This document shows, piece by piece, positions 41,192 to 41,525 of a stretch of DNA of 64,000 nt. The position numbers and the translations under genes are program-made. Under the pieces are notes generated by a model, which did not search any database, had not been told where the DNA came from, and saw only the letters and a program-made list of their open reading frames with translations. The stretch is from the NCBI GenBank assembly GCA_033344875.1, contig JAWPMO010000001.1, positions 1,141,595 to 1,205,594 on the forward strand, in the 5' to 3' direction. The first letter of the stretch is position 1, and each line of letters starts with the position of its first letter. This stretch comes from Ilumatobacteraceae bacterium (GTDB lineage Bacteria > Actinomycetota > Acidimicrobiia > Acidimicrobiales > Ilumatobacteraceae).

Positions 41192-41255
41192 ACGGAGCGA
41201 ACCCGGTGCGCCCGGATCGGTTTCGGCGGGGAGCCGACGCGGGTACGGTCGGGGC

Positions 41256-41525
41256 ATGAGCGATCACCGGATCAGCATCACGTACTGCGTCCCTTGAGAC
41301 TATTCGGAGCGCGCCGTGGGCGCTGCACGAGATCTCCTGCACGACTACCAGCACATCATCAGCGAGTTGTCGCTGGTGACGGGGTCGAAAGGAGTGTTCG
41401 ATGTCGTCGTGGACGGCCGGACTCTGTACTCGAAGCACGAGACCGGCCGCCACGCCGAACCACTTGAAGTGTTGACGCTCTTTCGGGAGCAGTACGCCAC
41501 CGACGTCACGCCGTACGAGCGCTAG
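41256..41525 (+). CDS. SelW-like Rdx-family selenoprotein with in-frame TGA (Sec14)
   Basis: A small thioredoxin-fold redox protein. Reading through TGA at 41295-41297 gives 89 residues: MSDHRISITYCVPUDYSERA, then LLHDYQHIISELSLVTG, GVFDVVVDGRTLYSKHETGR and a helical end. This fits the SelW/SelT/SelH (Rdx) pattern: a first strand, CxxU/CxxC, then GxFxVxVDGxxxYSKxxTG. The TGA falls exactly at the second redox Cys, so U14 with Cys11 makes CVPU. TACGGT (41244-41249) lies six bases before the ATG, a leaderless promoter. A hairpin with GU in its loop begins nine bases after TGA. A call starting at GTG 41316 would lose the active site. A nonsense mutation is the main alternative. Confidence 0.85.
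41306..41326 (+). promoter_or_regulatory. Candidate bacterial SECIS hairpin
   Basis: Downstream of the TGA, GCGCC-GTG-GGCGC (41311-41323) or, in a second register, AGCGC-(7 nt)-GCGCT (41308-41324) forms a stable stem inside the coding frame. The apical GTG starts 18 nt after the TGA. Loop size, the leading G and the distance agree with the published bacterial SECIS model. Confidence 0.6.

Follow-up and report, generated by a model that had tools for sequence, protein, structure and literature searches.

A predicted SelW-like selenoprotein gene in an Ilumatobacteraceae genome, with a covarying SECIS hairpin and a probably leaderless mRNA

We predict with high confidence that the window analyzed here, a stretch of 64,000 nucleotides from an Ilumatobacteraceae bacterium, carries an intact and working gene whose product is a redox protein containing selenium and belonging to a well-known family, the SelW-like selenoproteins. 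The frame belongs to the Rdx family and is interrupted by a TGA that is conserved among its relatives; this TGA is followed by a covarying SECIS hairpin, and the genome possesses a complete selenocysteine (Sec) machinery, with which the family co-occurs. The features of the locus are as follows.

41244..41249, + strand: TACGGT, the -10 element of a promoter that is probably leaderless; transcription would start at the A of ATG 41256 or at a base beside it.
41256..41525, + strand: SelW-like selenoprotein gene of the Rdx family, with 89 codons followed by the stop codon TAG and with Sec predicted at codon 14.
41295..41297, + strand: TGA (codon 14) predicted to be decoded as Sec, in a CVPU motif containing Cys11 and Sec14.
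41309..41326, + strand: SECIS hairpin, identified from pair counts, synonymous constraint, synonymous resampling and folds.
41309-41314, 41315-41319 and 41320-41326, + strand: 5' arm, apical loop and 3' arm of the SECIS hairpin, with U41324 bulged in the window copy.
41316..41318, + strand: GTG (Val21), the conserved GUG of the SECIS loop and the false start of a 69-aa ORF.

The earlier note had described a frame running from ATG 41256 through the TGA at 41295-41297 to TAG 41525 and encoding an 89-residue Rdx-family protein with a CVPU motif. Its coordinates are exact: the TGA is the single interruption, the stop codon TAG lies at 41523-41525, and the product with TGA read as U is MSDHRISITYCVPUDYSERAVGAARDLLHDYQHIISELSLVTGSKGVFDVVVDGRTLYSKHETGRHAEPLEVLTLFREQYATDVTPYER. 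The family assignment also stands, as the protein matches the Pfam profile Rdx PF10262 (E 6.4e-17; 62 bits, cut-off 22.6) and TIGR02174 CXXU_selWTH (45.1 bits, cut-off 34.2). With the equivalog profile NF041051 SelTWH_Campy it reaches 69.4 bits, below the cut-off of 88, making the window protein a relative of Campylobacter jejuni SelW and not a member of the same equivalog. An AlphaFold2 model with Cys replacing Sec at position 14 has a mean pLDDT of 95.8 and comprises a complete Rdx domain, in which a strand at residues 4-10 precedes CVPU at residues 11-14; both columns of the CxxU/CxxC motif after this first strand are invariant in 29 aligned sequences (Sec shown as C). The fold is the thioredoxin-like fold of the Rdx family, structural ranks 1-21 all being chains of six bacterial entries (3dex, 2fa8, 2oka, 2obk, 2ojl and 2p0g) that match the window protein by sequence as well. 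The best solved match by sequence (E 6.5e-10) and by structure is 3dex, Streptomyces avermitilis SAV_2001, which has the same fold at 36% identity (TM 0.80/0.85) and a Cys that aligns with Sec14. SAV_2001 differs in having CxxC where the window protein has CxxU, and such Cys-form Rdx proteins therefore need no Sec insertion. Mouse SelW (2npb) and human MIEN1/C17orf37 (2ljk) have a similar fold, with TM 0.65 and 0.67 over the query, at only 19% and 24% identity. The downstream conservation that the earlier note had put forward was also found: from codon +12 after the TGA, NG86 dN/dS is 0.16-0.32 against nine relatives, indicating purifying selection.

A lone stop at the position of an active-site Cys is just what one base change would produce, and the frame might thus be the debris of a gene in which a TGC or TGT codon was mutated, or misread in sequencing, to TGA. 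The relatives leave this reading with a negligible probability. In a set of 61 genomes an Rdx gene was found in 18 (the genome studied here included), and exactly one in-frame stop, TGA, is present in 18 of 18, so that the pattern of stops in relatives, on which the earlier note had made its case depend, is not random. In named public contigs TGA occupies this codon at 35 of 36 loci, the remaining one (L073, on a Bathyarchaeota-titled contig) having TGC; many of the 36 are titled Ilumatobacter, Acidimicrobiaceae or Acidimicrobiales, and 6 of them are the same genes as in the 61-genome set. A TGA common to relatives in this way is therefore no sequencing error and already refutes the candidate explanation of a pseudogene or misread base. 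Purifying selection downstream and covariation of the SECIS hairpin weigh against it too. The earlier claim of a working gene is upheld.

The gene co-occurs with the Sec machinery. Within the 61 genomes, tRNA-Sec is present in all 18 with Rdx, and Rdx is found in 0 of the 16 that lack tRNA-Sec (Fisher p 0.0015, uncorrected for relatedness). A SelA match is present in 17 of the 18 Rdx genomes of this close set, and the association of Rdx with SelA has a Fisher p of 0.047 when any SelA match is counted and 0.012 when weak matches are treated as absent, again uncorrected for relatedness. The exception, G015, has a TGA-type Rdx gene and a tRNA-Sec, both on contig C43, and no SelA match in an assembly that is 90% complete; its SelA may either be missing from the incomplete assembly or have been truly lost. 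As 27 of the 45 genomes with tRNA-Sec have no Rdx, the SelW-like gene is dispensable.

Searched class-wide, Rdx was found in 154 of 395 genomes, with one TGA in every match listed except that of G063; the rows of G197, G287, G355, G357 and G414 are not among the matches listed. The G063 gene (L077, contig C65) has TGC and encodes a CTQC form, and its genome yields no SelA match, providing a clean Sec/Cys contrast. The earlier note's wording that relatives have CxxC or CxxU calls for one refinement: almost all Rdx proteins seen in the class carry CxxU, and the Cys forms seen are those of G063 and the archaeal-labelled L073. In family f47, whose members (e.g., G064, G069 and G082) are assembled at 0.6-1.1 Mb, the TGA-type Rdx gene is kept; 37 Rdx genomes of this family are among the matches listed, and SelA was found in 14 of the 14 that were checked.

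The genome itself consists of one contig of 4,968,626 bp (99.65% complete), and the components that the earlier note proposed to look for, selA, selB, selD and a tRNA-Sec (selC), are all four present. SelA scores 337.9 bits and SelD 367.2 bits; SelB scores 275.9 bits against a cut-off of 242.25 and carries SelB-wing_3, its gene overlapping selA by four bases; and the tRNA-Sec, with anticodon TCA, scores 66.6 bits against a cut-off of 47. Further TGA codons were observed in the same genome. The selD gene (G000:C1:4687734-4688651, minus strand) contains a TGA within GAGUGCK near the N-terminus, and is thus probably a selenoprotein gene itself; in the mechanical ORF list its start was placed downstream of the TGA codon. 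A formate dehydrogenase alpha gene, FdhA (G000:C1:4447319-4449190, minus strand), has a TGA within NRTUHAP and scores 648.4 bits, just below the cut-off of 666.25, and a second Fdh-like match at 4444603-4444851 contains one TGA. In GAGUGCK and NRTUHAP the TGA stands where SelD and FdhA of other organisms are known to have Sec.

Near-cognate read-through of TGA is a known phenomenon, and the TGA of the SelW-like gene could accordingly be decoded as an ordinary amino acid, by a near-cognate tRNA or through an altered code, and not as Sec. We regard this as very unlikely. TGA terminates both flanking genes, which by their sequences we take to be ppc and a cold-shock gene; the genome has SelA, SelB, SelD and a tRNA-Sec with the TCA anticodon; the only non-TGA Rdx gene among the class matches listed belongs to a genome without a SelA match; and the hairpin that follows the codon shows conservation at synonymous positions. 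The same flanking genes were considered as a clue to the substrate through operon linkage, and this was set aside: ppc accompanies the gene at 12 of 52 loci (seven distinct) and the cold-shock gene at 6 (three distinct), with about 1.5 kb inspected on each side for the contig-search loci, and because this neighborhood is local the linkage says little on function.

The SECIS hairpin lies shortly downstream of the TGA. With columns numbered from the first base of this codon, its stem is formed by columns 15-20 with 26-31. Among the columns tested, synonymous conservation is strongest at codons +5 to +8, which make up most of the hairpin; their observed/expected values are 1.56, 1.67, 1.64 and 1.89 (the next column has 1.47). 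Pairs were counted after removal of six duplicate loci (L038, L039, L040, L042, L043 and L046); L073, having TGC, entered neither the SECIS nor the synonymous counts. The first set comprises 47 sequences, 41 of them distinct; 84.6% of its cells are paired and 19 cells are changed on both sides. In both sets together (68 distinct among 75) the six pairs have 90.4% of cells paired, with 47 changed on both sides. No shuffle of 500 reached the observed value for paired cells or double-change cells, and slid versions of the stem pair at 15-61%. The weakest measure was the number of pairs showing a both-side change, reached by 28 of 500 shuffles in the first set and 15 of 500 in both sets. In synonymous resampling of codons +4 to +11, 369 of 408 pairs were observed, against a mean of 243.6 and a highest value of 268 in 2000 resamplings. 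As the six-pair stem was chosen from folds of the first 47 sequences, a cleaner test is provided by 28 others from the class search that played no part in this choice (L098 and L077, the Cys form, being left out), among which 27 form six of six pairs and 1 forms five.

The single-sequence fold of the window copy is no better than those of shuffles (z -0.72, with 45 of 200 as good), and RNAalifold alone gave a weak consensus of three pairs only. The fold after the TGA is not significant in one sequence; the SECIS element is recognized only when relatives are compared. With the register fixed, the two outer pairs are lost in 16 and 15 of 68 sequences. The window copy is among these, and in it the two pairs form through one bulged U. 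The consensus apical loop is CGUGG in the window copy and mostly CGUGA or CGUGG in the first set, CGUGA being the commonest; the single-sequence fold of the window copy also pairs C41315 with G41319, leaving GUG as the loop. A G in the apical loop, as in known bacterial SECIS elements, is found at column G22, which is invariant in 75 of 75 aligned sequences.

The GTG in this loop, kept in 44 of 47 genes, opens the 69-aa ORF at 41316-41525 that the earlier note had correctly pointed to as a source of a shortened call. Given its open frame and its conservation, this short ORF might be considered the functional product, one lacking the active site. The GTG is itself the SECIS loop, however, the conserved first strand and active site precede it, and the conserved -10 element lies ahead of the upstream start and not of the GTG, making a short functional product extremely improbable. 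A standard-code gene caller would truncate or drop the SelW-like gene, a call that is corrected here; truncation arises because the SECIS loop itself supplies a start-like GTG.

The -10 element TACGGT lies exactly where the earlier note had placed it, six bases ahead of the ATG, and its conservation suggests that the SelW-like mRNA is probably leaderless. A TANNNT motif occurs 6-8 nt ahead of the start at 37 of 47 loci, compared with 101 of the 12071 remaining start-like triplets of these loci, a contrast that is somewhat flattering as genes could offer several candidate starts and each control only one triplet; in this count the archaeal L073 was kept among the 47 and L037 is absent. In the second set, whose genes come from more distant genomes, the motif recurs at this spacing in 23 of 28. 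It was not found at 6-8 nt in 10 of the 47 loci, the archaeal one included, or in 5 of the 28, and these five genes (L078, L081, L082, L094 and L104) have AGGAG- or TGGAGG-like stretches ahead of the start, as in leadered mRNA. When a comparable rule is applied to the whole window, 11 of its 37 plausible genes look leaderless, against 0 of 37 antisense controls; judged by such motifs, leaderless genes seem to be ordinary in this genome.

SelA, SelB, SelD and tRNA(Sec) have established roles in Sec synthesis and insertion, and expression of the SelW-like gene can be pictured on this basis. RNA polymerase would start at the ATG and yield a leaderless mRNA, as the conserved -10 element suggests. 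SelA would convert the serine carried by tRNA(Sec) to Sec, using selenophosphate supplied by SelD, and when the ribosome reaches the UGA at codon 14, SelB with GTP and Sec-tRNA(Sec) would bind the hairpin just downstream and insert Sec. The predicted product is a thioredoxin-like Rdx protein of 89 residues. Its Sec14 would be the nucleophile and Cys11 the resolving residue, the pair undergoing thiol-selenol exchange in which either a selenenylsulfide or a mixed bond to thioredoxin or a low-molecular thiol is formed and released. It would thus serve as a small thiol/peroxide redox protein. A search for a thiol partner returned a MshC-like (mycothiol) match of 422.5 bits, below the cut-off of 485.1. 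Alternatively, the UGA could act mainly as a selenium-responsive regulatory stop, the output being a short peptide or decay of the mRNA, and with the UGA at codon 14 and the mRNA probably leaderless, synthesis of the full product would indeed depend strictly on selenium. This seems very improbable to us: the downstream protein is under purifying selection and is modeled as a complete Rdx domain, so that the full-length protein is one of the outputs whichever way the UGA acts.

SelW-like selenoproteins have long been known, and the window gene is an added member and not a new type of gene; its less usual traits are a clear SECIS element and an mRNA that is probably leaderless. The bacterial SelW-like selenoproteins of the Sargasso Sea and GOS data (Zhang and Gladyshev) are alike in belonging to the SelW family with CxxU and in having, immediately behind the UGA, a SECIS element whose small apical loop contains a G. 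They differ in that Acidimicrobiia and leaderless mRNAs are not named in the passages considered, and the word "actinobacteria" appears in neither text. The Sargasso paper calls SelW function unclear, takes CXXU to suggest a redox role and notes an interaction with glutathione. Zhang et al. 2006 (PMC1794560) list SelW-like for Symbiobacterium thermophilum, under Actinobacteria, and count it with the families for which Sec-containing organisms have few or no Cys homologs. Eukaryotic SECIS elements, unlike that of the window gene, are described as lying in the 3'-UTR. C. jejuni SelW (CJnc60) offers a parallel, being an unannotated SelW homolog of 80-81 aa with a UGA-encoded Sec, whose read-through is backed by Ribo-seq and proteomics according to PMC11955535; according to PMC4607533, annotation completely missed Epsilonproteobacteria SelW genes in some genomes. 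Searches of the open-licence PMC literature found no report of selenoproteins of Acidimicrobi- or Actinomarina, and none of Sec recoding on leaderless mRNAs among the papers listed, the latter judged mostly by title. Selenocysteine occurs there together with Ilumatobacter and with Acidimicrobiia in one paper each, on soil metaproteomics and on a sponge microbiome.

In conclusion, the known SelW genes of Sec type gain a well-supported group whose SECIS element covaries strongly. We consider it likely that these genes form a class-wide SelW selenoprotein lineage expressed from leaderless mRNAs, with Sec at about the 11th-16th codon and, in the window copy, a SECIS element spanning nt 54-71 as counted from the 5' end. 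The lineage is also retained in genomes close to 1 Mb in size, and SelW may contribute there to maintaining the Sec machinery. The genes suggest that Sec recoding occurs on leaderless mRNAs; if true, it would work on ribosomes that have started without Shine-Dalgarno contact.
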